This document shows, one piece after another, positions 9,569 through 26,828 of a DNA stretch of 37,317 nucleotides (within the stretch, counting starts at the first letter, position 1; each line of letters starts with the position of its first letter). A program made the translations under genes and the position numbers. Source of the DNA: an uncultured Myxococcales bacterium. GTDB taxonomy: Bacteria; Myxococcota_A; Bradymonadia; UBA7976; UBA1532. The stretch covers positions 1 through 37,317 of the forward strand of contig CAINDO010000389.1 of NCBI GenBank assembly GCA_903847385.1, written 5' to 3'. The notes beneath the pieces were generated by a model that did no database searches, was not told where the DNA came from, and worked only from the letters and a program-made list of their open reading frames with translations.

Positions 9569-9624
9569 ATCCGCCGGGCCCGTGGCGCGTCCGTGGGGGA
9601 GGGCCCCCTCGCCCCGGAGTGACC

Positions 9625-10272
9625 ATGCCGACCATCGCGCGTTCGCTCGTCCTCGCCGTGCTGGCCCTGTCGGCCTGCGGCGCGCCCGCCTATGTGCAGC
9701 CCGTGCCGCCGCCCGCGCCGCCGCCGGTCGTCGTCTACGTTCAGGCGCCCGCCCCGGCCCCGGCGGTCGCGCCGCCGCAGACCCCGGCCCGCGTCGAAGT
9801 GGTGGTCCTGCCCGTCAGCCCCCCCGTCTCGCGCCCGGCCCCGCCGGTGCGCCTGCGGCACCCGGTGGTCTTTGTCGGCCGGCCGGGAACTTGGGGCCTG
9901 CGTCCCACCCCGCCGGACCACCCGCGGCGCCACGCGAAGCCACCGCGGCGCCACGCCGAGCGGCCGGACCGGCGAGAGCGTGCGCGTGAACCGGAACGCG
10001 GGCACGATCGCGACGCCGACCGCCCGGAGCGCCGTGAGCGCGGGCACGACCGCGACGCGGACCGACCGGCCCGACCGGATCGCCGAGAGCGCGACCGCGA
10101 AGCCGACCGCCCCGAGCGCCGCGAGCGCGAGAAGCCCCCCGTCCGCGGCCCGGCGATGCGCGTCCGAAAGGTCGTCGGGCGCCCCGTGGTCGCGCCCCGC
10201 CCCGCCGCCCCGCCGAGCGCGACCCCCGGCCGCCCGCCGTTCGCCCCGAGAAAGCCCCCGCGCCACCGATGA
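9625..10272 (+). CDS. Arg/Asp-rich low-complexity lipoprotein
   Basis: 215 residues. I chose ATG 9625 over a GTG 60 bases upstream because it has GGAG a few bases before it and gives a clean lipoprotein signal (IARSLVLAVLALSAC, Cys at about 18). After the anchor comes a Pro/Ala/Val-rich stretch (YVQPVPPPAPPP and similar), then a highly charged region built on RDADRPERRERG-type repeats, and a Pro/Arg-rich end. Nothing in it suggests an enzyme. Such proteins may act as envelope spacers or bind polyanions, but no function can be assigned. Its last codons (PPRHR) are copied in the short repeat downstream, and its TGA overlaps an ATG (ATGA). Confidence 0.65.
   Translation: MPTIARSLVLAVLALSACGAPAYVQPVPPPAPPPVVVYVQAPAPAPAVAPPQTPARVEVVVLPVSPPVSRPAPPVRLRHPVVFVGRPGTWGLRPTPPDHPRRHAKPPRRHAERPDRRERAREPERGHDRDADRPERRERGHDRDADRPARPDRRERDREADRPERREREKPPVRGPAMRVRKVVGRPVVAPRPAAPPSATPGRPPFAPRKPPRHR
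9997..10131 (+). repeat. Degenerate coding tandem repeat (HDRDADRPERRERG units)
   Basis: Inside the lipoprotein gene, a unit of about 14-20 codons recurs about three times. It encodes HDRDADRPERRERG, then HDRDADRPARPDRRER, then DREADRPERRERE. The DNA copies are imperfect (GGCACGAtCGCGACGC against GGCACGAcCGCGACGC), so the repeat is old or under protein-level selection for charge. Confidence 0.7.
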
Positions 10273-10311
10273 AGCCCCCCCACCGATGAAGCCCCCCCAC
10301 CGATGAAGCCC
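10269..10311 (+). repeat. 17-bp tandem repeat forming ATGA-linked mini-ORFs
   Basis: The unit ATGAAGCCCCCCCACCG occurs twice exactly (10269, 10286), and the third copy (10303) starts the next gene with ATGAAGCCC. Because 17 is not a multiple of three, each ATG is in a different frame. The first two each encode only MKPPHR and stop at a TGA overlapping the next ATG. The upstream gene's own TGA also overlaps the first ATG. A ribosome could therefore step from gene to gene through two six-codon cistrons. The unit resembles the final codons of the upstream gene, so it probably arose by duplication of the junction. Confidence 0.85.
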
Positions 10312-10674
10312 TCGACCCTCGCCCTCGCCCTCGGCGCCCAGCTCGGCGCGATCCTGCTCGCCTTCGGGGTCCAGCGCGCCGTCACCGGCGGCTCGGCCAG
10401 CGGCCTGCCCTTCATCGTCGGCGGCATCTTCGGCACGCAGCTCGGCGCGCTCCGGCACGCCCGCCTGCCGGGGAGCGTGAACGACGCCCGCGCCAGGGGC
10501 ACCCTGAGCGCCGTGCTGTGCGTCGGCGCGCTCGCCTGCGGCCTCGGCCTGCAGGTCGCCTTCGCGCCCTTCGTGGCGCCGGAGATCACGCTGGGCTTCG
10601 CCGCCGTCGGCAGCGCGGTCTTCCCCTGGGTGCTGTTCAACCAGATGTGGCGCGCGGTCCGCCCGAAGGGTTGA
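10303..10674 (+). CDS. Small four-helix membrane protein, unknown function
   Basis: 123 residues. Four hydrophobic segments are visible: about residues 6-26, 36-52, 67-88 and 92-113. The loops are short and the tail is positively charged (MWRAVRPKG). No motif links it to a known family in my reading. It could be a small inner-membrane protein of the DUF type. The start is the third copy of the 17-bp repeat; it has no separate ribosome site beyond the upstream G-poor repeat, so it probably depends on translational coupling with the lipoprotein gene. Confidence 0.65.
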   Translation: MKPSTLALALGAQLGAILLAFGVQRAVTGGSASGLPFIVGGIFGTQLGALRHARLPGSVNDARARGTLSAVLCVGALACGLGLQVAFAPFVAPEITLGFAAVGSAVFPWVLFNQMWRAVRPKG

Positions 10675-10705: not shown

Positions 10706-12091
10706 ATGACCCCGGACGCCTCTGCCCCGTGTCGCGTGCTGCTCATCGACGACGATGAGGCCTTCCGCATCGCCATGGGCAAGGCGCTGCGCCGCCGCGG
10801 GTTCGAGGTCACGCCCATCTCCGGGGGCGAGGCGGCCATCGCCGCGCTGACGGAGACCACGGGCGAGCCGCACCACGTGGCGGTCCTGGATCTTCGCATG
10901 CCGGACGTCGGCGGCCTCGAGGTCCTGCGCCGCACCAGCGCACGCACGCTGCCCGTCGTCGTGCTCACGGGGCACGGCTCCGTGCCGGACGCCGTGGAGG
11001 CCATGCGCCTCGGCGCCCACACGTTCCTGATGAAGCCGCTGGACGCCGAGGCCCTCGCGCCCATCCTGGCCGACGCCGTCGCGCCCGCCGGGGCCGTGGA
11101 CGACAGCTTCGTCGGCGAGGCGCCGGCCACCCGCGCCGCCCGCGGCGTGCTCGAGCGCCTCGCGCAGGCGGACGAGCCCATCCTCCTCACGGGCGAGACG
11201 GGCACGGGCAAAGAGGTCGCCGCGCGTTTCGTGCATCGTCGGTCGAGGCGCGCCCAGGCGCCCTTCGTGCCGGTCAACATGGCCTGCCTGCCCCGCGAGC
11301 TCGTCGAGAGCGAGCTCTTCGGCCATGCCCGGGGTTCGTTCACGGGCGCCGATCGCCGCAAAGTCGGCCTGCTCGAGGAGACGGGGGAGGGGACACTCTT
11401 CCTCGACGAGATCGCCGAGCTCCCCATCGAGCACCAGCCCAAGCTGCTCCGCGTCATCGAGAGCCGCATGTACCGGCCCGTCGGCGAGACGCGCGAGCGG
11501 CCCTTCCACGGCCGCCTCGTCGCCGCCACCCATCGGGACCTGGCCGAGGAGGTCCGCCGCGGCCGCTTCCGGCAGGATCTCTTCTACCGGCTGCAGGTGC
11601 TGCCGCTGTCGTTGCCGGCGCTCCGCGAGCGGCCCGACGACATCCTGCCGATCCTGACGCACTGGCTCGGCGCCGTCGGCCGCCGGCCCCTGGAGCTCTC
11701 GCCCGGGGCCTGCGAGGCCCTGCTGCGCCACGACTGGCCGGGCAACGTCCGCGAACTGGTCAACCTGGCCCGCCGGCTCACGCTCTTCGCCGAGAACGGT
11801 CGGGTCGACGCCCCCCTGGTGCGCAAGATGCTCGCGGCCAACCCCTTCGCCGGGCCGGCCCACCCGACGACCTTCCCGGTCACTGCGCCGTCGGACGCCG
11901 CGGGCGCGGCGCTGGACGCCGAGACGGGCGAGCCCGAGGCCATCACGCTCGAGGATCTGGAGCGCCGCCACATCGAGCGCCTGCTCGGGCACCACCGCAA
12001 CGTCACCCGCGTCGCCGAGATTCTGGACATCAACCGGCGCACGCTCCAACGCAAACTGCGTGCCTGGGGAATTGACGTAGATGAATCGTGA
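10706..12091 (+). CDS. NtrC-family sigma-54-dependent response regulator (orphan)
   Basis: 461 residues. The receiver domain (about 8-125) has the acidic pair Asp15/Asp16, phosphoacceptor Asp62 (VAVLDLRMPD) and Lys110 (FLMKPLD). The sigma-54 activator AAA domain (about 135-360) has Walker A GETGTGKE (163-170), GSFTGA (210-215, the GAFTGA sigma-54 contact loop with A-to-S at the second position), Walker B LFLDEI (231-236), and the arginine-finger and sensor region FRQDLFYRLQVLPL. A Fis-type helix-turn-helix (about 420-456, NVTRVAEILDINRRTLQRKLRAWGI) binds DNA. No histidine kinase gene is adjacent. It lies directly before a control region with paired dyads and a sigma-54 promoter in front of the ACIII-caa3 operon, so the simplest reading is that it activates that operon. 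The signal it responds to is unknown. Confidence 0.95.
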   Translation: MTPDASAPCRVLLIDDDEAFRIAMGKALRRRGFEVTPISGGEAAIAALTETTGEPHHVAVLDLRMPDVGGLEVLRRTSARTLPVVVLTGHGSVPDAVEAMRLGAHTFLMKPLDAEALAPILADAVAPAGAVDDSFVGEAPATRAARGVLERLAQADEPILLTGETGTGKEVAARFVHRRSRRAQAPFVPVNMACLPRELVESELFGHARGSFTGADRRKVGLLEETGEGTLFLDEIAELPIEHQPKLLRVIESRMYRPVGETRERPFHGRLVAATHRDLAEEVRRGRFRQDLFYRLQVLPLSLPALRERPDDILPILTHWLGAVGRRPLELSPGACEALLRHDWPGNVRELVNLARRLTLFAENGRVDAPLVRKMLAANPFAGPAHPTTFPVTAPSDAAGAALDAETGEPEAITLEDLERRHIERLLGHHRNVTRVAEILDINRRTLQRKLRAWGIDVDES

Positions 12092-12140
12092 TGCGGCATT
12101 TTGCCGCGCCGCTTTTGCCGCCGGTGCGACATTCTGCCGC
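12092..12140 (+). promoter_or_regulatory. Paired dyad upstream activator sites (candidate UAS)
   Basis: TGCGGCATTTTGCCGC (12092-12107) and TGCGACATTCTGCCGC (12125-12140) match at 14 of 16 positions. Each contains a 15-bp dyad: GCGGCA-N3-TGCCGC with perfect arms in the first, and one arm mismatch in the second. Their starts are 33 bp apart, close to three helical turns, and a half-site (TTTTGCCGC, 12113-12121) lies between them. The dyad centres are about 87 and 120 bp upstream of the -12 element at 12220, a normal place for enhancer sites of NtrC-family activators. Confidence 0.65.
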
Positions 12141-12161
12141 GGCCCAAGTCGGCGAAATTTA

Positions 12162-12190
12162 TGGACTTGAGCCGCTCCCTTTGCTAGAAG
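12162..12190 (+). promoter_or_regulatory. Possible sigma-70-type promoter upstream of actA
   Basis: TGGACT (12162-12167), 17-base spacer, TAGAAG (12185-12190) preceded by TGC. Each hexamer matches four of six consensus bases. It could give basal expression alongside the sigma-54 promoter. Confidence 0.35.
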
Positions 12191-12205
12191 CGCCCCCCAA
12201 TCTGA

Positions 12206-12220
12206 TGGCATGCGTCTTGC
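12206..12220 (+). promoter_or_regulatory. Sigma-54 (-24/-12) promoter for the act-cox operon
   Basis: TGGCATG-CGTC-TTGC matches the sigma-54 consensus TGGCACG-N4-TTGC at all but one position, with exact GG-to-GC spacing. The predicted transcription start is about 12232, giving an 80-base leader before actA. An NtrC-family activator gene and paired dyad sites lie immediately upstream. Confidence 0.7.
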
Positions 12221-12240
12221 CGGTTCGGGGGTGAACCGGC
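12219..12240 (+). promoter_or_regulatory. Perfect 8-bp inverted repeat overlapping the -12 element
   Basis: GCCGGTTC (12219-12226), six-base loop GGGGGT, GAACCGGC (12233-12240). The left arm includes the GC of the -12 element and the right arm lies at the expected start of transcription. It could be a repressor operator blocking the promoter. Confidence 0.5.
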
Positions 12241-12312
12241 CGCACGACGGCCAACGGATGCGCGTCCACACGCTCCAATTTCGGAGCGGTTGCCAGACGA
12301 GGTTGCGCCGCG

Positions 12313-12999
12313 ATGAGCAACGAGAATCCTGGCCACGACGGGAAGAAACCCCTGTTCGTCTTCCCGGAATTCCACAACCGGATCCCGCTGATGCTGGCCC
12401 CCGTGCTGGCCTTGGCGCCGATCGGCCTGATCGGGGCGATCTGGTACTACTTCTCGCCCAGTTTCACGGACGTGGGATACCAGCCCGACCAGCCCGTGCC
12501 GTACAGCCACAAGCTGCACGCGGGCGACCTCGGCATCGACTGCCGGTACTGCCACGTGGGGGTCGAGAAGGGCCCCCACGCCGGCGTGCCGCCCACGCAG
12601 ACGTGCATGAACTGCCACGCCTCCGTGAAGAAGGACAGCCCGCTGCTCACGCCGGTGCGTGAGAGCTGGACGTCCGGCGAGTCGATGCAGTGGGTCCGGA
12701 TCCACAAGTCCCCGGACTACGTCTACTTCGACCACTCGGCGCACGTGCGCGCCACCATCGGCTGCGAGGCGTGCCACGGCCGCATCGACCAGGCCGTGGT
12801 GGTCAAGCAGGAGCAGCCGCTGAGCATGTCGTGGTGCCTGGAGTGCCACAAGGCGCCGGAGAACTACCTCCGGCCGCGCGGCACGGCCACGGTGATGGGC
12901 TACAAGCCCGAGGGCGGCGACCAGCTGGCCCAGGGCACGAAGCTCAAGAAGGAAAACAACATCAATCCCCCCATCCATTGCTCGGGGTGCCACCGATGA
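12313..12999 (+). CDS. actA: Alternative complex III subunit ActA, pentaheme cytochrome c
   Basis: 228 residues. A short cytoplasmic N-terminus is followed by one transmembrane anchor (about 25-47) and a periplasmic domain with five CxxCH sites at residues 77-81, 98-102, 151-155, 175-179 and 223-227. Extra histidines for distal ligation are present (PYSHKLHA, YFDHSAH). Five hemes plus a single anchor is the ActA pattern of alternative complex III, the quinol:electron-acceptor oxidoreductase that replaces the bc1 complex. It carries electrons out of the complex towards the oxidase. The stop overlaps the actB ATG (ATGA). This is the first gene of the operon, about 80 bases after the predicted sigma-54 start site. 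Confidence 0.95.
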   Translation: MSNENPGHDGKKPLFVFPEFHNRIPLMLAPVLALAPIGLIGAIWYYFSPSFTDVGYQPDQPVPYSHKLHAGDLGIDCRYCHVGVEKGPHAGVPPTQTCMNCHASVKKDSPLLTPVRESWTSGESMQWVRIHKSPDYVYFDHSAHVRATIGCEACHGRIDQAVVVKQEQPLSMSWCLECHKAPENYLRPRGTATVMGYKPEGGDQLAQGTKLKKENNINPPIHCSGCHR

Positions 13000-15900
13000 G
13001 CAACGACAAGCGCTATTGGCGGAGCCTCGAGGAGCTCGAGAACACGCCCGCCTTCCAGGAAGCCCTCCTCAAGGAGTTCCCGGAAGAGGTCGAGGCCGAC
13101 GCGGTCGACACGACCACCCGGCGCCACTTCCTCGGCGTGATGGGCGCGTCCATCGCCATGACCTCCCTCGCCGGCTGCGTCCGCCGCCCCGAGCAGAAGA
13201 TCCTCCCGTACACGCGGGCTCCCGAGGATCTCATCCCCGGCGTCGCGCAGTACTACGCGACGGGGACCAGCATCGGCGGTCGGGCCATCGGGCTCGTGGT
13301 CGAGGCCCATGAGGGCCGCCCGACCAAGATCGAGGGCAACCCGGGCTCCGCGGCGGCGGGCGTCGTCCGCTCCGGCGGCACCACGGCGCTGCACCAGGCC
13401 TCGGTGCTCAACCTCTACGATCCCCAGCGGCTGCGCCTCCCCATGGCCGCGGGCAAGCCCTCGGACTGGTCGGCGGCGACCACGGCCCTCAAGGCCAAGG
13501 CCGAGGCCCTCAAGGCCGCCAGTGGCGCCGGCCTGGTCATCCTGAGCGAGGCGCTGCCCTCGCCCACGCTGGCCAAGCTCCGGGAGCGCTTCCACACCGC
13601 GTACCCCCAGGCCAAGTGGTTCACCTACGAGCCCCTGGCCGAGGACAACGAGCGCACCGGCCTCAAGGCCGCGTGGGGCGAGCCGGTCGTGCCGGTGTTC
13701 CGCCTCGCGCAGGCCCGCGTCGTCGTCTCCCTCGACAGCGACTTCCTCGGCACCGAGGGCGACGTCGTCGAGAACGCGGCCGGCTGGGCCCGCAGCCGCA
13801 AGGTGAACACCGGCGAGGACCGCATGTCCCGCCTGTACGCCATCGAAGGCCACCTCTCGATCACCGGCACCAACGCCGACCATCGCCTGCGCGTGAAGAC
13901 CTCGCAGGTCGAGGCCTTCGCCTGGGCGCTCGCCGCCGAGCTGCTGAAGGACAACAAGGTCGTCCTGCCCGCCGACATGGTGCCCCTGGCCAAGGCCGCG
14001 CCCGGCATCGACCCCAAGTTCGTCGCCGCCGTCGCCGCCGACCTGCAGGGCAACCGGGGCGGGGCCCTGGTCATCGCCGGCCGCCGTCAGCCGCCCGCCG
14101 TGCACGCCCTCGCGGCGGCCATGAACGCCGGCCTCGAGTCCCACGGCAGCACGGTCTACTACTACCCGGACCACCGCCGCCCGGCGACGGAGAACGGCGA
14201 CCTCGCCAACATCAAGGAGCTCGCGGGCCTCTTGAACGGCGGCGCGGTCGACACGCTGGTGGTGCTCGGCGGCAACCCCGCCTACACGGCCCCGGCCGAC
14301 CTCGGCTTCACGGCCGCGTTCGCCAAGGCCAAGACGAAGATCTGCCTCTGCGACTTCGTGGACGAGACGAGCAAGGCGGCCGACTGGGCCCTGCCGCGCG
14401 CGCACTTCCTCGAGGCCTGGGGCGATGTCGTCTCCACGGACGGCAAGGTCACGCTCCAGCAGCCGGTCATCTCCCCGCTGTGGGGCGGCAAGAGCGAGAT
14501 CGAGCTGCTCGCCCTCCTCCTCGGCGAGACCGAGACGGACGGTTACAGCCTCGTGCGCAACTACTGGAAGGGCCGCGAAGGCGCGGTCTCCTTCTACAAG
14601 AAGTGGCGCAAGTGGCTGGCGGACGGCTTCCGCACCGGCGACGAGTTCGGTGTCGTCCCCACCTACAAGCAGCCCGCCGGCCTCGCCGGCGTGACTTCGA
14701 GCCCCGCCCCCGCCGGCGAGGGCTTCGAGGTCACCTTCTACGATGGTTTCCTGCACGACGGCCGCTTCGGCAACAACGCCTGGCTGCTCGAGACGCCGGA
14801 CATCGTCAGCAAGGTCGTGTGGGACAACCCGGCCCTGGTGAACGTCAAGACGGCGCGGGATCTCGGCCTGGCCGACGAAGACCGCGTCACGATCGAGGTC
14901 GGCGGCCGCAAGCTCGAGACGGTCGTTTGCATCGTCCCCGGCCTGGCCGATGGCAACATCAGCCTCCAGCTCGGCTTCGGGCGCGACTTCAACAGCTTCC
15001 TGCCCTACCACGAGTCGGGCAAGGTCGGCTTCGACGTCAACGTGCTCCGCACGGTGGACGCCGCCGGTTTCGCCGCGGGCGCCAAGCTCTCCAAGACGGG
15101 CGGCACGTACCCCCTCGCCAAGACGCAGGTCTACGCGAAGCAGGACCCCGGCTTCGGCTACGCGGCCCGCCCGATGGTCCGCGAGGCGACGCTCGAGGAG
15201 TTCAAGAAGAACCCCAAGTTCGCCAAAGAGGGCATCATCGAAGAGGGCAAGCCCCGGCCGCAGGCCATGGTGGTGCACCCGCCCGAGCAGGCCATCTACC
15301 AGGAGCTCACCTACGACGGCGAGTTCCAGTGGGGCATGGCCATCGACCTGACGACCTGCACGGGCTGCGGCTCCTGCATGGTCGCCTGCGTCGCGGAGAA
15401 CAACCTCTCCATGGTCGGCAAGGACCAGGTCCGCCGCGGCCGTGAGATGCACTGGATCCGCATGGACCGGTACTTCGTCTCCGACGACGAGACCAAGCCG
15501 GACGAGATCCAGGTGGTGCACCAGCCCCTCGGCTGCCACCACTGCGAGAACGCGCCCTGCGAGAACGTCTGCCCGGTCCAGGCCACGTCGCACAGCCCCG
15601 AGGGCCTCAACGACATGGCCTACAACCGCTGCATCGGCACGCGGTACTGCGCGAACAACTGCCCCTTCAAGGTGCGGCGGTTCAACTTCTATCACTACTC
15701 CAAGGACGCCCCCGAGACGGTGCACATGGCCCGCAACCCGAACGTGACCGTCCGGTTCCGCGGTGTCATCGAGAAGTGCACCTACTGCGTGCAGCGCATC
15801 AACCTCGGCCGGCAGGCCTCCAAGGCCGCGGAGTCCCCGCAGGCCAAGAAGGCGGCGATCGACGCCATCACGCCGGCCTGCGCGCAGGCCTGCCCGACGA

Positions 15901-16058
15901 CCTCCATCGTCTTCGGCAACATCAAGGACAAGGAGACCAAGGTCTCCAAGGCCAAGGCCGCCGATCGCAACTACCGGCTCCTCACCGAGCTGAACGTCAA
16001 GCCGCGCACCTCGTACCTCGCGAAGGTGCGCAATCCCAACCCGGGCCTGGGGGCGTAA
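12996..16058 (+). CDS. actB: Alternative complex III subunit ActB (fused molybdopterin-like and iron-sulfur protein)
   Basis: 1020 residues. A twin-arginine signal at about 42-64 (TTRRHFLGVMG...) ends in SLAGC, a possible lipid-attachment site. The first part (about 65-740) has the fold of molybdopterin oxidoreductases (LVVEAHEGRPTKIEGNP, VVLGGNPAY) but lacks the N-terminal cysteine cluster and an obvious cofactor ligand, as in known ActB, where it holds no molybdenum. The C-terminal ferredoxin-like part has four cysteine groups: CTGCGSCMVAC (about 788), CHHCENAPCENVC (about 847), CIGTRYCANNC, and CTYC paired with CAQAC. Together these suit three [4Fe-4S] and one [3Fe-4S] or a similar set. 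It sits on the periplasmic side, contacting ActA and ActC. A formate dehydrogenase or nitrate reductase label would be misleading. Confidence 0.95.
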   Translation: MSNDKRYWRSLEELENTPAFQEALLKEFPEEVEADAVDTTTRRHFLGVMGASIAMTSLAGCVRRPEQKILPYTRAPEDLIPGVAQYYATGTSIGGRAIGLVVEAHEGRPTKIEGNPGSAAAGVVRSGGTTALHQASVLNLYDPQRLRLPMAAGKPSDWSAATTALKAKAEALKAASGAGLVILSEALPSPTLAKLRERFHTAYPQAKWFTYEPLAEDNERTGLKAAWGEPVVPVFRLAQARVVVSLDSDFLGTEGDVVENAAGWARSRKVNTGEDRMSRLYAIEGHLSITGTNADHRLRVKTSQVEAFAWALAAELLKDNKVVLPADMVPLAKAAPGIDPKFVAAVAADLQGNRGGALVIAGRRQPPAVHALAAAMNAGLESHGSTVYYYPDHRRPATENGDLANIKELAGLLNGGAVDTLVVLGGNPAYTAPADLGFTAAFAKAKTKICLCDFVDETSKAADWALPRAHFLEAWGDVVSTDGKVTLQQPVISPLWGGKSEIELLALLLGETETDGYSLVRNYWKGREGAVSFYKKWRKWLADGFRTGDEFGVVPTYKQPAGLAGVTSSPAPAGEGFEVTFYDGFLHDGRFGNNAWLLETPDIVSKVVWDNPALVNVKTARDLGLADEDRVTIEVGGRKLETVVCIVPGLADGNISLQLGFGRDFNSFLPYHESGKVGFDVNVLRTVDAAGFAAGAKLSKTGGTYPLAKTQVYAKQDPGFGYAARPMVREATLEEFKKNPKFAKEGIIEEGKPRPQAMVVHPPEQAIYQELTYDGEFQWGMAIDLTTCTGCGSCMVACVAENNLSMVGKDQVRRGREMHWIRMDRYFVSDDETKPDEIQVVHQPLGCHHCENAPCENVCPVQATSHSPEGLNDMAYNRCIGTRYCANNCPFKVRRFNFYHYSKDAPETVHMARNPNVTVRFRGVIEKCTYCVQRINLGRQASKAAESPQAKKAAIDAITPACAQACPTTSIVFGNIKDKETKVSKAKAADRNYRLLTELNVKPRTSYLAKVRNPNPGLGA

Positions 16059-16064
16059 GCGACC

Positions 16065-17495
16065 ATGTCGAACGCGAACTACCAGACACAAACGGTCTTT
16101 CCGCCGCCCCTGGTCGAGGGCAACCAGACCTTCCACACCATCACCGACGCCATCTGTCGGGTGGTCGAGGCGCCGCCCTCGAAGGGCTGGATCGCCTCGT
16201 TCCTCATGGCGCTGCTCGGCCTCGGTGTGCTCGGCGTCTCCGTCGGCTGGCTCATCTGGGAAGGCACCGGCATCTGGGGTCTGAACCAGCCGGTCTCCTG
16301 GGGCTTCGCCATCGTGAACTTCGTGTTCTGGGTGGGCATCGGCCACGCCGGGACGCTGATCTCCGCGATCCTCTTCCTGTTCCGCCAGAAGTGGCGCACG
16401 TCGATCAACCGCTTCGCCGAAGCGATGACGATCTTCGCCGTCATCTGCGCGTTGCTGTTCCCGACCATCCACGTCGGTCGCGTGTGGCTGCTCTACTGGG
16501 CGCTGCCCATCCCCAACCAGATGGGCATGTGGCCGAACTTCCGCAGCCCGCTGCTCTGGGACGTCTTCGCGGTCTCCACGTACTTCACGGTGTCCCTGCT
16601 CTTCTGGTACGTCGGCCTCATCCCCGACCTCGCCACGCTGCGCGACCGCGCCAAGAGCAAGCTCGCCTACTACGCGTACGGCATGTTCGCCCTCGGGTGG
16701 CGCGGCGCGAACCGTCACTGGCAGAACTACGAGAAGGCCTACCTGATCCTGGCCGGCCTCTCGGCGCCGCTGGTGCTCTCGGTGCACACCATCGTGTCCT
16801 TCGACTTCGCCGTGTCGGTCATCCCCGGGTGGCACACGACGATCTTCCCCCCGTACTTCGTCGCCGGCGCCATCTTCTCCGGCTTCGCGATGGTGCTCAC
16901 GCTGGCCATCCCGGCGCGGAAGATCTTCAAGCTCGAGCAGTTCATCACCGTCCGTCACGTCGAGAACATGAACAAGATCATCCTCGTGACGGGCATGATG
17001 GTCGGCTACGCCTACGCGATGGAGTTCTTCATCGCCTGGTACTCGGGCTCCGAGTACGAGAGCTGGACCTTCATCAACCGCGCGTTCGGTCCCTACTGGT
17101 GGGCCTACTGGATCATGGTGAGCTGCAACGTGATCACGCCGCAGCTCTTCTGGTTCCAGAAGATCCGCCAGAACATGACCCTCTCGTTCATCCTGTCGAT
17201 CTTCGTGAACATCGGTATGTGGTTCGAGCGCTTCGTCATCACGATGTCGCTCCACCGCGACTACGTGCCCTCGTCCTGGGACTACTACAAGCCGACCATC
17301 TGGGACTTCGGGTGCCTCATCGGCTCCTTCGGTCTGTTCTTCACGCTGTTCCTGCTCTTCCTGAAGTTCCTGCCCGCCATCGCCATCTCCGAGGTGAAGG
17401 GTGTGATGCCGCAGGCGGATCCGCATTGGGAGGGCTACGCCGACCACGGCGACGACCACGGTTCTCACGCCGCGGGGGAGAAGCACCATGGCTGA
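16065..17495 (+). CDS. actC: Alternative complex III membrane subunit ActC (NrfD family)
   Basis: 476 residues with about ten hydrophobic segments, starting seven bases after actB. It opens with a polar N-terminus containing [13 protein letters not shown], then membrane helices with the NrfD/PsrC-family look ([51 protein letters not shown]). This subunit forms the quinol-binding site and a proposed proton path in known ACIII structures. The C-terminus is His- and Asp-rich ([19 protein letters not shown]), which is unusual and shared in kind with other proteins of the operon. The last eight bases overlap actD. Confidence 0.95.
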
Positions 17496-18024
17496 GGCAC
17501 GCGTCTGGGGGCTCGTCGCCGAGTTCGAGAACCCCGCCAAACTCCTCCATGCCGCCGAGGGCCTGCGTGACGCCGGCTACAAGCGCTACGAGGTCTGGTC
17601 TCCGTTTCCGGTTCACGGCATGGACAACGCCATGGGGCTCTCCCGCTCCAAGGTGCCCTGGTTCGTGCTCGGCGGTGGCCTCACCGGCATGACCTGCGCG
17701 CTGCTGCTGCAGTGGTGGTCCGGCGCGGTCGAGTACCCCGTCATGATCGGTGGCAAGCCTCTGTTCGCCTTCGAGTTCGCCACGCCGGTGACCTTCGAGG
17801 CGTCCGTGCTGCTGTCGGCCTTCGGCGCCGTCTTCAGCATGATCGGCCTGAACCGCCTCCCGAACCCCTATCACCCGCTGGACAAGGTCGCGATGTTCCG
17901 CCGCTCCACGGACGACGGCTTCTTCATCTCGATCGAGACCCGCGACGGCAAGTTCGACCTGCACCGGAGCCGCGAGCTGCTCGAGAGCCTCGGTGGCCGG
18001 CACGTGACCGTGGTCGAGGAGTGA
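17488..18024 (+). CDS. actD: Alternative complex III subunit ActD (DUF3341)
   Basis: 178 residues. A soluble N-terminal ferredoxin-like fold ([41 protein letters not shown]) is followed by two transmembrane helices (about 50-74 and 93-118), joined by a loop with [18 protein letters not shown], and a C-terminal tail ending in RHVTVVEE. This is the standard DUF3341 layout of ActD, a membrane subunit without cofactors that packs against ActC. ATG 17488 overlaps the end of actC. Confidence 0.93.
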
Positions 18025-18028
18025 AGCG

Positions 18029-18646
18029 ATGCGCAGCCTGATCGCAATGCTGGTCGCCGCGGCCGCGTTGGGCGGGTGCCGCGGGGAGCCCTCGAAGCTC
18101 CCCCCGGTGCACCTGAACCCCAACATGGACACGCAGGACAAGTACAAGGCCTACGGCGCCAGCCACCTCTTCCAGGACGGCCGCACCATGCGCGAGCCGC
18201 CCGCGAACACGGTCCAGTTCGGCCTCTCGAAGGAGAGCGACGAGATCTACCGTGGTCAGGACGAGTTCGGGAACTTCATCAGCAAGTTCCCCGTCACGCT
18301 CGACGCGAAGCTGATGAAGCGTGGCCAGGAGCGCTACGACATCTTCTGCGCGCCGTGCCACGACAAGTCCGGCGGCGGCAAGGGCATGGTCGCGCAGCGG
18401 CCCGGCCTCGTGCCCCCGCCCAGCTTCGTCGACTCCACGGACGTCAACGGGCGCCGCATCATCAACATGCCGGTCGGTGAGATCTTCAACACGATCACCA
18501 ACGGCAAGAACACGATGCCGGCCTACCGCACGCAGATCCCCACCGACGACCGGTGGGCCATCATCGCCTATCTCCGGGCGCTCCAGCGTGGCCAGAACGC
18601 CCGTTTGAGCGATGTTCCGGCCGACCAGCAGGGGAGCCTCAAATGA
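18029..18646 (+). CDS. actE: Alternative complex III subunit ActE, monoheme cytochrome c lipoprotein
   Basis: 205 residues. A lipoprotein signal ends at LGGC (Cys17). One heme c site, CAPCH, is at residues 107-111, followed by DKSGGGKGM. A distal Met is available in INMPVGE or NTMPAYRTQI. DRWAIIAYLRALQ is the C-terminal cytochrome helix. ActE lies on the periplasmic face beside ActA and may be the exit to the oxidase. The stop overlaps the actF ATG (ATGA). Confidence 0.94.
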   Translation: MRSLIAMLVAAAALGGCRGEPSKLPPVHLNPNMDTQDKYKAYGASHLFQDGRTMREPPANTVQFGLSKESDEIYRGQDEFGNFISKFPVTLDAKLMKRGQERYDIFCAPCHDKSGGGKGMVAQRPGLVPPPSFVDSTDVNGRRIINMPVGEIFNTITNGKNTMPAYRTQIPTDDRWAIIAYLRALQRGQNARLSDVPADQQGSLK

Positions 18647-19857
18647 GCGCACATGGCCCTGTCTTTCGCGACAACGCGAAGCTCGATCCGGCGCTCGCCG
18701 GCAGCCTAATCAAGGGCGGCTACGCCGTCGGCGGTCTCGCGCTGCTCGCCAGCGTCGGCGGCGGGTTCGCCGGCGGGGACGAAGGAAAGAAGCAGTTCTT
18801 CTTCTCCTGGCTCGCGGCGTACATGCCCTTCATCACGATCGCCGTCTGCGCGCTCTTCTTCTCCGTGCTGCACCACCTGGTGCGGGCGAGCTGGAGCACC
18901 GCGGTCCGGCGCGTGGCCGAGAACCTCGCCGGGAACATCCCGATGATGGCGGTCCTGTTCATCCCGATCCTGCTCGGCATGGGCGACCTCTATCACTGGT
19001 CCCACCACGACGCCGTCGAGCACGACGCCGTGTTGAAGGCCAAGTCCGGCTACCTCAACACCGGCTTCTTCATCGGTCGCGCGGTCTTCTTCTTCCTGGT
19101 CTGGACGTTCCTGCAGCACTTCTTCCGCACGAACAGCCTGAAGCAGGACGAGACGGGCGACGTCGCGCTGACCTTCAAGATGCGCAAGCTGGCCCCCGTG
19201 GCCACGCTGCTCTTCGCCCTGACGATTTCCTTCGCGGCGTTCGACTGGTCGATGAGCACCTCGCCGCACTGGTTCAGCACCATCTACGGCGTGTTCACGT
19301 TCGCAGGCGGCATGATGGGCATGTTCGCCTCCATGGCGCTCGCGACCCTCTGGATCACCGGCCGCGGCGCCCTGGGCACCACGCTCACCGTCGACAACTT
19401 CCACGACGTCGGCAAGTTGATGTGGGGCTTCATGGTCTTCTGGACCTACACGGGCTTCAGCCAGTACTTCCTGATCTGGTACGGCAACATCCCCGAGGAG
19501 ACCATCTACTTCACGATCCGTCAGAACAACGGCTGGATGTCGGTCTTCCTCCTGATGGTGATCGGCCACTTCATCGCGCCGTTCTGGATCCTGATGAGCC
19601 GCCACATGAAGCGCAGCCGGGCGATGCTCGGCGCCGGCGCCGCCTGGCTGCTCCTGATGCACTACATGGACCACTACTTCATGGTCATGCCGGTGCTCCA
19701 CGAGCACCTGCACTTCCACTGGCTCGATGCCACCTGCCTGATCTCCATCACCGGCTTCTTTGTCGCCGGCTGGGCGCAGCGCACGGTCAAGCACAACCTG
19801 GTGCCCGTGAAGGATCCTCAGCTCCTCGCTTCGATGGGGTACGAGAATGCAGTCTGA
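18643..19857 (+). CDS. actF: Alternative complex III membrane subunit ActF (NrfD-like)
   Basis: 404 residues. ATG 18643 overlaps the actE stop. About ten membrane helices are visible, with conserved-looking polar positions (HHLVRASWSTAVRR, DLYHWSHHDAVEHDAVLKAKSGYLNTGFF, MWGFMVFWTYTGFSQYFLIWYGNIPEET). It is a shorter relative of ActC, lacks heme ligands expected of a cytochrome b, and in known complexes forms the second NrfD-like half with a possible proton path. The end overlaps the following small gene by 11 bases. Confidence 0.94.
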   Translation: MSAHGPVFRDNAKLDPALAGSLIKGGYAVGGLALLASVGGGFAGGDEGKKQFFFSWLAAYMPFITIAVCALFFSVLHHLVRASWSTAVRRVAENLAGNIPMMAVLFIPILLGMGDLYHWSHHDAVEHDAVLKAKSGYLNTGFFIGRAVFFFLVWTFLQHFFRTNSLKQDETGDVALTFKMRKLAPVATLLFALTISFAAFDWSMSTSPHWFSTIYGVFTFAGGMMGMFASMALATLWITGRGALGTTLTVDNFHDVGKLMWGFMVFWTYTGFSQYFLIWYGNIPEETIYFTIRQNNGWMSVFLLMVIGHFIAPFWILMSRHMKRSRAMLGAGAAWLLLMHYMDHYFMVMPVLHEHLHFHWLDATCLISITGFFVAGWAQRTVKHNLVPVKDPQLLASMGYENAV

Positions 19858-20186: not shown

Positions 20187-21041
20187 TTGAAGACGCGTCT
20201 GGCCATCCTGCTCGCCCTGCTTTGGGGCGGCTCCGTGTGGGCGAACGAGGACCGCGTGCCTCCCATGCCTCCGGAGCTCAAAGCCGTGGAGATCACCGAG
20301 CACCTCGGTGACAAGCTCCCGCTCGGGCTGCCGTTCGTCGACGAGACGGGCCTGGCCGTGACGCTGGGGGACTATTTCAAGGCTGGCCGGCCGGTCCTCC
20401 TGACGCTGAACTATTACGAGTGCCCGATGCTCTGCAACCTCGTGCTGACCGGGCTGGTCGATGGGCTGAAGGCCATGGACTGGACCCCGGGCAAGGAGTT
20501 CGAGGTCGTCACGGTGAGCATCAACCACCGTGAGGGCCCCGCGCTCGCCCTGGCGAAGAAGAAGTCTCACGTCGAGGCCATCGGCAAGCCCGGGGCCGAG
20601 GACGGATGGCACTTCCTCACGGGCAAGACGGAGAGCATCGAGGCCCTGACGAAGACGGTGGGCTTCGGTTATCGGTGGGATCCGGATCAGATGCAGTACG
20701 CCCACGGCGCGGCCATCTTCATGGTCAGCCCGGACGGCGTGCTCACCCGGTATCTCTATGGGATCCAGTATCCGGCGAAGGACATTCGCCTCGCCCTGGT
20801 GGAAGCCGGGGAGGGGAAGCTGGGCAGCGTGGTCGACAAGTTCCTGCTGTACTGCTTCCACTACGTGCCCTCGTCGCAGAAGTACGAATTTTACATCTGG
20901 GGAGCGATGCGGCTCGGTGGGTTGTTGACCGTGCTGGCAGTCGGATCGCTTCTCGGGGTGCTCTGGGCTCGGGAGCGGCGCCTGACGCGCGCCCTCGCCG
21001 CGGCCGTGCCGCCCACTGACCACGCAGTGACACGCGCCTGA
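20187..21041 (+). CDS. sco: SCO1/SenC-family copper chaperone, membrane-anchored
   Basis: 284 residues, starting at TTG 20187 with a signal peptide (LAILLALLWGGSVWA). The thioredoxin-like domain has the copper-binding Cys79-x3-Cys83 (YECPMLCN) and His173 (YAHGAAIFMV), the full SCO metal site. Unlike most SCO proteins, it has a C-terminal membrane helix (about 244-264) followed by a basic tail. SCO proteins deliver copper to the CuA site of oxidase subunit II, and here the gene sits directly before coxB. A GC hairpin spans its stop codon. Confidence 0.93.
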   Translation: MKTRLAILLALLWGGSVWANEDRVPPMPPELKAVEITEHLGDKLPLGLPFVDETGLAVTLGDYFKAGRPVLLTLNYYECPMLCNLVLTGLVDGLKAMDWTPGKEFEVVTVSINHREGPALALAKKKSHVEAIGKPGAEDGWHFLTGKTESIEALTKTVGFGYRWDPDQMQYAHGAAIFMVSPDGVLTRYLYGIQYPAKDIRLALVEAGEGKLGSVVDKFLLYCFHYVPSSQKYEFYIWGAMRLGGLLTVLAVGSLLGVLWARERRLTRALAAAVPPTDHAVTRA

Positions 21042-21063: not shown

Positions 21064-21993
21064 ATGGAGACCGGAAGCAGCTTCTGGATGCCAGCGCAGG
21101 CTTCGACGTTCGCCGGAGACGTCGACGATCTCTACTTCTTCATCTACTGGCTCTGCGTCTTTTTCTTCCTGGTGATTGCGGGCGGCACCGTCCTCTTCGC
21201 CTGGAAGTATCGACGCCGACGGCCGGACCAGCTCGCCTCGGCGCAGATCACCCACAACACGCTCATCGAAGCGGCGTGGACGATCATCCCGACGATCATC
21301 TGCATCGGGATCTTCGCGTGGTCCTTCAAGGTCTACATGGGCCTGCAGGTCGCCCCCGCGGATGCCGCCGAGTACAAGGTGGTCGGCAAGCAGTGGGCCT
21401 GGGAGTTCACCGAGCCCGACGGCTGCCAGACCTACGGCGAGCTGCACGTGCAGGCGGACAAACCCGTCAAGCTGCTGATGCGCTCCGAGGACGTGATCCA
21501 CTCGTTCTACGTCCCGGACTTCCGCATCAAGCAGGACGTGATCCCGGGCCGTTACACGGGCCTCTGGTTCCAGGCGCCGAAGGCCAACGCCCAGGGCCAT
21601 CAGGTGTTCTGCACCGAGTACTGCGGCACCAGCCACTCCGACATGCTCGCGAAGGTCATCGTGCATACGGCGGAGGAGATGGAGAAGAAGGCCTGGTGCG
21701 AGACCAAGGCCGACGCCGCCACCGGCGAGAAGCTGTACAAGGCGCTGTGCGCGGCCTGCCACACCACCGACGGCAACCGGCTCGTCGGTCCGAGCTTCAA
21801 GGCGCTCTTCGGGCGCGATGAGAAGCTGACCGGTGGCGCCACCGTAAAGGTCGACGAGAACTACATCGTCGAGTCGATTCGCAACCCGATGGCCAAGGTG
21901 GTCGACACCTACCCGCCGGCGATGCCGCCCTTCCCCCAGCTGAAGGACAAGGAAATCGACGCCATCATCATGTACCTCAAGACGCTGAAGTGA
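21064..21993 (+). CDS. coxB: Cytochrome c oxidase subunit II with fused cytochrome c (caa3 type)
   Basis: 309 residues. Two transmembrane helices (about 23-47 and 70-91) precede the CuA cupredoxin domain with His146 (VIHSFYVPD), Cys183, Cys187, His191 and Met194 ([12 protein letters not shown]), the full CuA set. A fused C-terminal cytochrome c domain has CAACH at 229-233 and a Met ligand in [10 protein letters not shown]. This fusion defines the caa3 class, in which the oxidase takes electrons directly from ACIII or a soluble carrier. Its frame overlaps the GTG before coxA. Confidence 0.97.
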
Positions 21994-22007
21994 CGGGAGC
22001 CACGGAA

Positions 22008-23650
<1,643 letters not shown>

Positions 23651-23660
23651 GGCGCGCGGC

Positions 23661-24314
23661 ATGAACACCATCGTCAAGCATCATCACGCCCACCACTTCG
23701 CCAGCGCCGCCCAGGAGTTCTCGGCGGCGAAGATGGGGATGTGGCTGTTCCTGGTCACCGAAGTGCTGCTCTTCAGCGGTCTCTTCCTCGGCTACGCCGT
23801 GATGAAGACGCTGTACCCGGAGATGTGGCACGAGGCCTCCCACCACCTCGACTGGAAGCTCGGCGGTCTGAACACCCTCGTGCTCATCACCAGCTCGTTC
23901 ACGATGGCGCTCGCGGTGAACGCCGCGCAGACCAACAAGGCGGGCGAGAAGAACGCTCGCCTCGTCGGCCTCCTGACCGCCACGATCCTCCTGGCGGGCT
24001 GCTTCCTCGTCGTGAAGTACTTCGAGTACAGCCACAAGTTCCACGATGGCATCCTGCCCGGCGCCCACTACACGTACGGCGGCATCAACGCCCCGAACGC
24101 GCACCTGTTCTTCGGCCTGTACTTCCTCATGACCGGCCTGCACGGCTTCCACGTCGTGGTCGGCATGGGCGTGCTCACCTGGGTTCTGCTCCGCGCCAAG
24201 AAGGGCCACTTCTATTCGGAGTACTACACCCCGGTCGAGGTCGGCGGCCTCTACTGGCACCTCGTCGACCTCATCTGGATCTATCTTTTCCCGCTTCTCT
24301 ATCTGGTGGGCTGA
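23661..24314 (+). CDS. coxC: Cytochrome c oxidase subunit III
   Basis: 217 residues with five clear membrane helices, the short form of subunit III found in bacteria. The motifs KMGMWLFLVTEVLLFSGLF, NTLVLITSSFTMALAV, FFGLYFLMTGLHGFHVVVGMGV and GGLYWHLVDLIWIYLFPLLYL are the family's signature. The N-terminus is His-rich (VKHHHAHHFAS). The subunit has no metal and stabilises the proton uptake side of subunit I. It starts ten bases after the corrected end of coxA. Confidence 0.96.
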   Translation: MNTIVKHHHAHHFASAAQEFSAAKMGMWLFLVTEVLLFSGLFLGYAVMKTLYPEMWHEASHHLDWKLGGLNTLVLITSSFTMALAVNAAQTNKAGEKNARLVGLLTATILLAGCFLVVKYFEYSHKFHDGILPGAHYTYGGINAPNAHLFFGLYFLMTGLHGFHVVVGMGVLTWVLLRAKKGHFYSEYYTPVEVGGLYWHLVDLIWIYLFPLLYLVG

Positions 24315-24327
24315 GGAGTCCCGCGCC

Positions 24328-24957
24328 ATGAGTCACGACAACACCCATGAGCACGGTGGCGGCGATCACGGCCACCACGTCGTCCCGATGAAGATCTACA
24401 TCGGCGTCTTCGCGACGCTGCTGTTCCTGACGGTCGTCACCGTCGCCGTCGCCCAGGTGGACCTGGGACCGGCGAACATGCTGGTCGCCATGATCGTCGC
24501 CACGATCAAGGCCAGCCTGGTCTGCATGTTCTTCATGCAGCTGAAGTACGACGAGAAGCTCAACGGCATCATCTTCGTCTTCGGCCTGATCTTCGTCGCG
24601 CTGTTCTTCCTGTTCACCACGCTGGACGTCTTCAGCCGAGGGTTCATCGACCCCCGTCAGGACAACCTGTACATGCAGCAGGAGAAGATGAAGGCGCTGA
24701 AGTACGAGGTCGAGCAGAAGCGGAACAAGGCCTTCCCGGCCGTCGGCCTCGCGGCGGATACGCCCCCGAAGGACGAGCTCGTGCCGCCCCCGCCGCCGCC
24801 CTCGGCGCCGGACGGTGGTGTGCTGGCCGATGGTGGCGTGGCGCCGGCCGAGGGCAGCGCCCCTGCCTCCGCCGTCGCCGCTCCGGGCAGCGCCGAGGCG
24901 CCCGCCTCCGCGGCCCCGGGCAGCGTGCCCGCCTCCGCCGCCCCCTCCGCGCCCTGA
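24328..24957 (+). CDS. coxD: Cytochrome c oxidase subunit IV family protein with Ala/Pro-rich tail
   Basis: 209 residues. A His-rich N-terminus (HEHGGGDHGHHV) precedes three membrane helices (about 21-45, 52-72, 78-100), including VATIKASLVCMFFMQLKYDEKLN, the signature of prokaryotic subunit IV (COX4_pro). Usual members are about 100 residues. Here a charged segment (YMQQEKMKALKYEVEQKRNKAF) and then some 60 residues of Ala/Pro/Ser/Gly repeats (PASAAPGSVPASAAPSAP) extend it. The tail is low-complexity and may be disordered; its function is unknown. It is the last gene before a terminator-like hairpin. Confidence 0.9.
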   Translation: MSHDNTHEHGGGDHGHHVVPMKIYIGVFATLLFLTVVTVAVAQVDLGPANMLVAMIVATIKASLVCMFFMQLKYDEKLNGIIFVFGLIFVALFFLFTTLDVFSRGFIDPRQDNLYMQQEKMKALKYEVEQKRNKAFPAVGLAADTPPKDELVPPPPPPSAPDGGVLADGGVAPAEGSAPASAVAAPGSAEAPASAAPGSVPASAAPSAP

Positions 24958-25060: not shown

Positions 25061-25732
25061 ATGGCCGAACCGGCGCCGGAACCCGCCCCGCATCCCCTGA
25101 TCGTCATTCGCCCGCTCCCGGATGTCGTCTACCTGTACCCGACCGCGATCCTGACGCTGATCTGCGGGCTCGTGGTGCAGTTCGGCGGCGCGTCCGAGAA
25201 CAACCCCGGTGTCACCGGGATCCTCTTCACGATCTTTTTCTTCACGAACCTGTCCATGCTGGCGTTCGACTACACCCGCATGACGGCCGTGGCGCTCGTG
25301 CTCGGTGGTGTGATCCTCGGGCTGCTGGCGGTGCTGTTCCCCGGTCTGCGGACGCTCCTGCACGACGTCCTCGATCAGCCCATGTTCATGAACGCCACGT
25401 ATTACTGGATATGGTCCGGTGGGTTCGGCGTCTTGCTGTTGGTCGTTCTGGCCCGCACGAAGTTCGACTACTGGGAAATCAACAGCAACGAGATCATCCA
25501 TCGTCGCGGCATCTTGGGCGACGTGGAGCGCTGGCCGGCACCGAATACGAGAATGTCCAAGGAAATCAAGGATGTGCTGGAGTACCTGCTGTTCCGGTCC
25601 GGACGGCTGGTGCTCGTTCCGCCCGGGGAGCAGCGGGCGATCGTCATCGACAACGTGCCGAACATCAACGCCGTGGAGGTCGAGATTCAGCGCGTCCTGA
25701 GCACCTTGCGGGTGTCGTCCGATGGCGGGTGA
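25061..25732 (+). CDS. Four-helix membrane protein with C-terminal PH-like domain
   Basis: 223 residues. ATG 25061 has GGAGG nine bases upstream. A Pro-rich N-terminus is followed by four membrane helices (about 22-41, 51-69, 75-94, 113-131). The C-terminal soluble domain (about 135-215) looks like a bacterial PH-type fold: YWEINSNEIIHRRGILGD opens it like the 'Y-x-I-T-x-x-E-I-x-x-x-x-G' start of bPH domains, followed by beta strands (SGRLVLVP, RAIVIDNV) and a closing helix (EVEIQRVLSTL). The domain call is from pattern only. The gene overlaps the next by 11 bases, so the two products probably work together. The function is unknown. Confidence 0.75.
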   Translation: MAEPAPEPAPHPLIVIRPLPDVVYLYPTAILTLICGLVVQFGGASENNPGVTGILFTIFFFTNLSMLAFDYTRMTAVALVLGGVILGLLAVLFPGLRTLLHDVLDQPMFMNATYYWIWSGGFGVLLLVVLARTKFDYWEINSNEIIHRRGILGDVERWPAPNTRMSKEIKDVLEYLLFRSGRLVLVPPGEQRAIVIDNVPNINAVEVEIQRVLSTLRVSSDGG

Positions 25733-26828
25733 GCGGGGGCCGGCCGTTCTGGTGGTGAGCGGGGACAGCGCGGTGCGCGGGGCGACCAACTCCGTCTTGC
25801 CCCTGGCCGGGTGGCGCGTGCAGGACGTGCCCTCGTACACCCTGGCGATGCACAACCTGAAGATCGCCCTGCCCGAGGTTCTGCTGCTCGACCAGAAGTT
25901 CCAGGAGGGCGACGCGCTCCAACTCATCAAGGCCGTGCGATACCTGCCCGGACAGGAGGACCTGATCATCGCGCTCATGGTCGAGTCCATCGACCGGACG
26001 ATGGCGGTTCAGTACGTGCGCGCCGGCATTCAGGTTTTCCTGGCCAAGCCCCTGAACATCGTGGATGTCTGCGAGAAGCTCGCCGAGCAGGTCGCGAACG
26101 CTGGGCGCATCGAACCGCCGCCGCCCGAGGAGGATCCGCTCGCGCGGCCGACGGTGGTCCTGGCGACGCCGAACCTGAACTTCAAGGAGATGGCCGAGAA
26201 GGCGCTGCTCGACGAGTGCGACCTGCTCTTCTTCGACGGGGTCCGAGGGATCGACGCCGAGCGGCGTGCGGCCTCGATCATCCTGGTGGATGAAGGACTG
26301 CCGGGCGGTCTGGACGCGCTGCCCAACTGGCGGGTGCTGTTCGGGCAGGACGCCATCGCGGTCGCGATGACCACGCGTGGCGGCGACGCGCCCGAGGGCT
26401 ACGCCGCGACGCTGGTGAAACCCGTCCGGGACACCGCGCTGCGAAAGACGGTGCGGCAGTACACCGATCGCGAACGCTACGGCATCTTCCCGATGCAGAA
26501 CGGCGTGGTCGTGCGCATCCGCGACGGTTGGCAGGCGCTCACGGAGAGCATCTTCGAAGAGTACCTGATGAACATCGACGAGATCGCCGAGCTCACCAAG
26601 GAGACCGGCCGCAAGTGGCTCTGCATCGACGGGCCGTACATCGGCGCGCCGGAGCAGATCCCGCGCACCCGGGCGCTCTACGAGGCGGCGGAGCGGCCGG
26701 GACTGCACGTCGGCGTCGTGACGCTCCAGTCGGACACGTCGCGGGTGGCGCTGCACTGCAACATTCGACCGATCTATGTGCACAACAAGACGGCGGAGTT
26801 CATCAAGGCGGTTCAGGACCTGGCCTGA
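25722..26828 (+). CDS. Tandem receiver-domain protein with an uncharacterised C-terminal domain
   Basis: 368 residues. Receiver 1 (about 8-127) has Asp57 (EVLLLDQKF) and Lys109 (VFLAKPL), but its acidic pair is reduced to GD (residues 14-15). Pseudo-receiver 2 (about 143-247) has Asp190 (IILVDEGLP) and Lys233 (ATLVKPV) in matching places and a very divergent start. The last 120 residues (VRIRDGWQALTESIFEEYLMNIDEIAELTKETGRKW...IYVHNKTAEFIKAVQDLA) match no output domain I recognise. There is no DNA-binding motif. With weakened phospho-sites it may act as a protein-interaction scaffold or stand-alone sensor. It is translationally coupled to the membrane PH-like protein. Confidence 0.75.
   Translation: MAGERGPAVLVVSGDSAVRGATNSVLPLAGWRVQDVPSYTLAMHNLKIALPEVLLLDQKFQEGDALQLIKAVRYLPGQEDLIIALMVESIDRTMAVQYVRAGIQVFLAKPLNIVDVCEKLAEQVANAGRIEPPPPEEDPLARPTVVLATPNLNFKEMAEKALLDECDLLFFDGVRGIDAERRAASIILVDEGLPGGLDALPNWRVLFGQDAIAVAMTTRGGDAPEGYAATLVKPVRDTALRKTVRQYTDRERYGIFPMQNGVVVRIRDGWQALTESIFEEYLMNIDEIAELTKETGRKWLCIDGPYIGAPEQIPRTRALYEAAERPGLHVGVVTLQSDTSRVALHCNIRPIYVHNKTAEFIKAVQDLA

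Follow-up and report, generated by a model that had tools for sequence, protein, structure and literature searches.

The region at positions 12092-12220 of the stretch analysed here is quite probably a composite promoter, in which basal sigma-70 transcription of an operon for alternative complex III (ACIII) and a caa3 oxidase, a whole segment of the aerobic respiratory chain, is combined with transcription from a sigma-54 promoter under a dedicated, orphan regulator of the NtrC type. The window is the whole 37,317-nucleotide contig C389, which belongs to a 9.48-Mb draft genome from uncultured Myxococcota. Many bacteria replace bc1, and ACIII is the main substitute known in them; the locus provides a concrete and testable switch for it. 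A wider reading, given about even chances, is that an order-specific, dedicated sigma-54 activator with RegA/RegR-like sites runs ACIII-caa3 through tandem sigma-70 and sigma-54 promoters, and that in a sister genus the regulator switched to sigma-70 only, losing GAFTGA and the -24/-12 element and keeping the dyads, which would amount to a sigma-factor switch in extant genomes.

Organization of the locus

The features on which the argument is based are the following.

10706-12091 (+): orphan NtrC-type response regulator of 461 amino acids, with a receiver, a sigma-54 AAA+ domain with a GSFTGA loop, and a Fis-type HTH with NRRTLQRKL
12092-12107 (+): dyad 1, TGCGGCATTTTGCCGC, predicted regulator (enhancer) site, from motif, conservation and shuffles
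12125-12140 (+): dyad 2, TGCGACATTCTGCCGC, predicted regulator (enhancer) site, on the same three grounds
12162-12190 (+): sigma-70-like promoter TGGACT-N17-TAGAAG, with an A-rich stretch ahead of it, recurring in the order
12206-12220 (+): sigma-54 -24/-12 element TGGCATG-CGTC-TTGC, TGGCATGCGTCTTGC, predicted start near 12232
12313-12999 (+): actA, multihaem cytochrome c, first gene of the ACIII-caa3 operon
12996-16058 (+): actB, molybdopterin-like and Fe-S subunit
16065-17495 (+): actC, NrfD-type membrane subunit
17488-18024 (+): actD (Pfam ActD, 7.2e-61)
18029-18646 (+): actE, cytochrome c
18553-19857 (+): probable actF, from position and codon bias only (high-GC3 open frame), start uncertain
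20187-21041 (+): SCO1/SenC copper chaperone
21064-21993 (+): coxB with a fused cytochrome c domain (caa3-type subunit II)
21990-23573 (+): coxA (subunit I)
23661-24314 (+): coxC (subunit III)
24328-24957 (+): coxD (prokaryotic subunit IV)

The operon thus has the composition expected of an ACIII-caa3 operon, i.e. actABCDEF together with a cytochrome-c-fused COX2, COX1 and COX3, with ActF assigned from position (the probable actF had no Pfam or NCBIfam match). The oxidase is assigned to the caa3 type because COX2 is fused to cytochrome c. The plus-strand run behind the oxidase genes ends with a reading frame at 25722-26828, which combines an N-terminal receiver-like domain (a weak match to Pfam Response_reg) with a long uncharacterised C-terminus.

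The 221 bases between the regulator gene and actA contain, in order, dyad 1, dyad 2, the sigma-70-like promoter and the -24/-12 element. The initial annotation had reported two dyad-shaped sites of 16 bp right after the regulator gene, and the sequence bears this out: they are identical at 14 of 16 positions, lie 33 bp apart from start to start, and are the only two matches in the window at up to three mismatches. The consensus in the order is TGCGRCA-N3-TGYCGC, and the spacing of the dyads varies widely across genomes, from about 19 to 110 bp. The -24/-12 element conforms to TGGCAYG-N4-TTGC with GG and GC at -24 and -12, and its sequence has no other match in the window at up to one mismatch; at up to three mismatches the pattern is uninformative (82 occurrences against 81 expected). 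Both the dyad pair and the -24/-12 element reached p = 0.001 in dinucleotide shuffles of the 221-bp region, a value that is the floor for 1000 shuffles, none of which equalled either score. An rpoN gene is present in the genome, as in all 16 genomes sampled from the order, G013 and G014 included. The promoter had been placed about 80 bp beyond the dyads; the element and the order of parts stand, but the distance is shorter, the -24 starting 65 bp past the end of dyad 2.

The sigma-54 reading of the region was supported but incomplete, since a conserved sigma-70-like promoter between the dyads and the -24/-12 element had been missed. It consists of TGGACT (12162-12167), 17 bp, and TAGAAG (12185-12190), with a predicted start at about 12197. 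The corresponding pattern, T[GA]GAC[AT]-N16/17 followed by a TA-type -10, was found in 12 of 13 members of the order against 0.18 expected from shuffles, an optimistic figure, given that these very sequences were the source of the pattern. The surrounding DNA aligns poorly, yet the element recurs in it, and it is also present in two genomes without the regulator (G003 and G010).

Two further sequences were observed in the leader, which aligns poorly across genomes when searched for a conserved RNA upstream of actA. An inverted repeat, GCCGGTTC-GGGGGT-GAACCGGC at 12219-12240 (+), spans the predicted sigma-54 start, and at the same place in G008 and G009 the arms differ in sequence and are again complementary. 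Just before the start of actA, at 12295-12312, lies a GAGGTTGC-type sequence that most members of the family share, among them genomes that lack the regulator.

The regulator

The protein combines a receiver, an AAA+ sigma-54 domain and a Fis-type HTH (Pfam Response_reg, 7.9e-22; Sigma54_activat, 1.6e-61; HTH_8, 2.2e-11), the architecture of a bEBP. It is not NtrC itself, since ntrC, its best NCBIfam model, scores below the equivalog cut-off. GAFTGA is the sigma-54-contacting loop of the activator, and its role and that of the -24/-12 element are established knowledge. In the orthologue alignment the loop reads GSFTGA in G000, the genome of the window, and in G001 and GAFTGA in the others, and is lost in G013 and G014. 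The change of the second residue from A to S is known from LevR, a validated activator, and the window regulator keeps a loop of functional type, by which ATP-dependent opening of the sigma-54 holoenzyme is predicted.

The presence of the AAA+ domain sets the protein apart from the RegA/PrrA/RegR family, which has a short receiver and an HTH, and its HTH scores 14.9 bits against ActR_PrrA, where the family cut-off is 250. The best match of this HTH among solved structures is the response regulator 3rqi (E = 5.5e-4, with RRTLQRKL in common). The NCBIfam models DhaR and Fis outscore ActR_PrrA on it, and a DNA specificity of the RegA type is therefore suggestive at most at the level of sequence. 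This type of HTH occurs once per genome at E <= 1e-5, and a search by HTH in 41 other genomes of the class returned no regulator outside the order.

The description of the activator as an orphan holds. No kinase gene adjoins it in the window or in those orthologue neighbourhoods that were inspected, and the two reading frames just upstream (9583-10272 and 10309-10674) have no Pfam match and are not kinases. A RegB-like kinase was considered as the partner and rejected, given that strong matches occur in only 6 of the 16 genomes and do not track the regulator.

Conservation across the order

Twelve of the 16 sampled genomes (G000 onward) have a clear orthologue of the regulator, at 46-77% identity, and four have none; as members of one order the 12 are not independent samples. 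The initial annotation had named absence of promoter and dyad conservation, where the regulator is conserved, as the result that would count against it, and the comparison across the order did not yield that result. Eight genomes combine an intact GxFTGA regulator with a readable actA region, and seven of them keep both the dyads and the -24/-12 element (TGGYAYG-N4-TTGC) upstream of actA (G000, G001, G006, G008, G009, G012 and G015, all at p = 0.001), while three members of the order that have actA and lack the regulator (G003, G004 and G010) keep neither, and the same is true of G016 and G021 from another family. In three of the seven the regulator and actA are not neighbours, the regulator lying beside rplQ in G009 and G012 and on another contig in G008, and the elements stay at actA. 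Few blocks of the intergenic region are as well conserved as the -24/-12 element, and in four genomes this extends to its CGTC spacer. The actA region of G007 is cut by a contig end and that of G011 is not readable; in G007 a dyad follows the regulator gene.

G005 breaks the rule, so that the sigma-54 reading holds in seven genomes of eight. Its regulator, with an intact GAFTGA, is separated from actA by 3.2 kb that include another gene, and upstream of actA there is a single weak dyad and nothing that convinces as a -24/-12 element (p = 0.09 and 0.11). Either the sigma-54 input at actA has been lost there or the regulator has another target. This genome also has a second, diverged ACIII cluster (L210, G005:C42:211000-219000; ActA 46%, ActB 38%), near which no dyads were found.

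Beyond the order, simple patterns applied to 77 ACIII upstream regions from many phyla matched only members of this order and one lone dyad. The latter, at L205:2658-2674, is a perfect TGCGGCAACTTGCCGCA; it precedes actA by about 90 bp in the MAG of an unrelated delta-proteobacterium.

The regulator appears to be dedicated to the ACIII-caa3 operon, and a single target is the simplest reading of the sequence data. In its own genome the dyad pattern has eight forward matches against seven for the reversed control, i.e. no genome-wide enrichment, and in most of eight genomes the exact pattern occurs near the reversed-control count. Seven dyad sites away from actA, inspected in four genomes, all fall within coding sequence or at its edge, which together with the lack of enrichment is consistent with a single target. 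A wider regulon was thus rejected, there being no second target among the inspected sites; degenerate targets could be missed. Autoregulation in G009 and G012 was also rejected, as no strong dyad was found around the regulator gene there.

Coupled loss in a sister genus

G013 and G014 represent one genus of the sister family, and their regulators adjoin actA. Both proteins lack GAFTGA and keep Walker A, Walker B and the HTH. Each actA promoter retains two dyads (p = 0.001), while the -24/-12 element is damaged in G013 (TGGTATGCTTATCGC, with TCGC in place of the TTGC of the others) and no GG-N10-GC element is found upstream of actA in G014. G015 belongs to that family as well and retains both the loop and the -24/-12 element. 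The loss of the loop in G013 and G014 is probably one evolutionary event in one genus, not two. The joint loss of loop and -24/-12 element is strong evidence that the regulator and promoter halves work as a pair, and, as an independent line beside the conservation across the order, it lends sequence-level support to the proposal of sigma-54/NtrC-type control of the operon. Loss or change of GAFTGA accompanies sigma-70 dependence in TyrR, DhaR and HupR (PMC3162934). With the operators kept, the losses in this genus offer a natural experiment on the route from a sigma-54 activator to a sigma-70 regulator.

Proposed mechanism and alternatives

The mechanism proposed here joins anatomy, conservation, co-occurrence and coupled loss, all read from the sequence, to predicted steps of binding, phosphorylation, activation and polymerase exclusion and to a putative signal. 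Basal transcription of the ACIII-caa3 operon would start from the sigma-70-like promoter at 12162-12190. A kinase encoded elsewhere would phosphorylate the regulator (10706-12091) in response to a signal that is perhaps oxygen or redox, and the regulator would then oligomerise on the dyads at 12092-12140, whose centres precede the sigma-54 start by about 100-130 bp. From there its AAA+ domain and GSFTGA loop would open the sigma-54 complex and so activate the promoter at 12206-12220, with a start near 12232. The sigma-70-like and sigma-54 sites lie within one polymerase footprint, and the two modes are therefore probably mutually exclusive alternatives. In the genus of G013 and G014, the sigma-70-like promoter is presumably the only one on which the regulator acts, by way of the dyads.

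That last arrangement might apply to the window itself, the sigma-70-like promoter driving the operon, the regulator activating or repressing it through the dyads, and the -24/-12 element being minor or unused. The sigma-70-like promoter is indeed the most widely conserved element and lies beside the dyads, the regulators of G013 and G014 lack GAFTGA where dyads are kept, and EBPs without GAFTGA that work with sigma-70 are known. This is nevertheless quite unlikely, as the strong conservation of the -24/-12 element and its spacer speaks against it, and an element without use would not be expected to follow the loop, as the -24/-12 element does in being lost where the loop is lost. It is very improbable that the dyads do no more than form an RNA hairpin or a terminator for the regulator gene, with the -24/-12 element matching by chance. 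G-C-rich dyads can form hairpins, and those of the window directly follow the stop codon of the regulator; however, a search for terminator-like sites gave none, the scores of both elements are above those of shuffles in seven genomes, and a terminator is contradicted by G008, G009 and G012, where the dyads are upstream of actA rather than behind the regulator.

Another possibility concerns the binder of the dyads, which might be the sites of a separate RegA-type regulator with a RegB-like kinase, the sigma-54 activator using other sites or having another target. The published RegR box, quoted in PMC5506826 as GNGRCRTTNNGNCGC, is matched by both dyads of the window, and some orthologous actA sites deviate from it. 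A RegA/RegB-like pair is found in 6 of the 16 genomes, including that of the window (C221), and in four genomes a dyad like TGCGACGATTNGTCGCA, or one base off, follows regA. These dyads lie just after the regA-like gene and ahead of the downstream gene (L230:3458-3474, L231:2992-3008, L232:3383-3399 and L235:58-74), and are possibly RegA sites. The RegB-like kinase of G000 may be split over contig ends, with its C-terminal part beside regA (C221:16047-16730, L230) and its N-terminal part at C663:2-619 (L229). The RegA-type reading is nonetheless unlikely: members of the order without the sigma-54 regulator lack the dyads as well, and G009 (95% complete), G012 (93%) and G015 have dyads at actA and no full-length RegA homologue was found in them, from which the sigma-54 regulator appears to be the better candidate binder. 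Since RegBA never occurs without the sigma-54 regulator in the genomes compared, the dyads may be used by both alike.

Comparison with known systems

The initial annotation knew of no described case of such control of an ACIII-oxidase operon. In the open-access literature, with subscription journals mostly uncovered, no account of sigma-54 regulation of ACIII or caa3 was found. The principle is not new, as sigma-54 control of other oxidases has precedents, and novelty lies in the ACIII-caa3 target and the dedicated regulator. NmpR, of the NmpRSTU system of M. xanthus, is an NtrC-like regulator with experimental support that controls a cbb3 oxidase operon (PMC11841059). Like the window regulator it belongs to Myxococcota; it binds paired dyads (15 bp, GCGCA-N5-TGCGC) upstream of a sigma-54 site and activates genes of oxygen use, the cbb3 operon among them (PMC11841059). 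It differs in its multi-target regulon, known kinases, cbb3 target and other dyad, whereas the system described here has an orphan gene, GCGRCA-N3-TGYCGC dyads and apparently a single target, ACIII-caa3. The cyd operon of Acidithiobacillus ferrooxidans, according to the excerpts of PMC5506826, is also a terminal-oxidase operon with both promoters, sigma-54-dependent and a second, sigma-70 one (starts mapped by 5' RACE), and with a sigma-54 regulator gene, AFE_0957, upstream. It encodes cytochrome bd instead of ACIII-caa3 and belongs to an unrelated lineage, and those excerpts give no defined AFE_0957 sites.

RegA, PrrA and RegR resemble the window system in the RegR box that its dyads fit, and in the likeness of the RRTLQRKL HTH to 3rqi; they differ in having no AAA+ domain, and the HTH of the window regulator is nearer to the DhaR and Fis models. 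The GAFTGA-less EBPs (TyrR, DhaR and HupR of R. capsulatus) have lost or changed the loop and work with sigma-70, like the regulators of G013 and G014, whereas the window's own regulator keeps the functional-type loop GSFTGA. Compared with all of these, what is new here is the target, the dedicated orphan regulator and the natural loss experiment.
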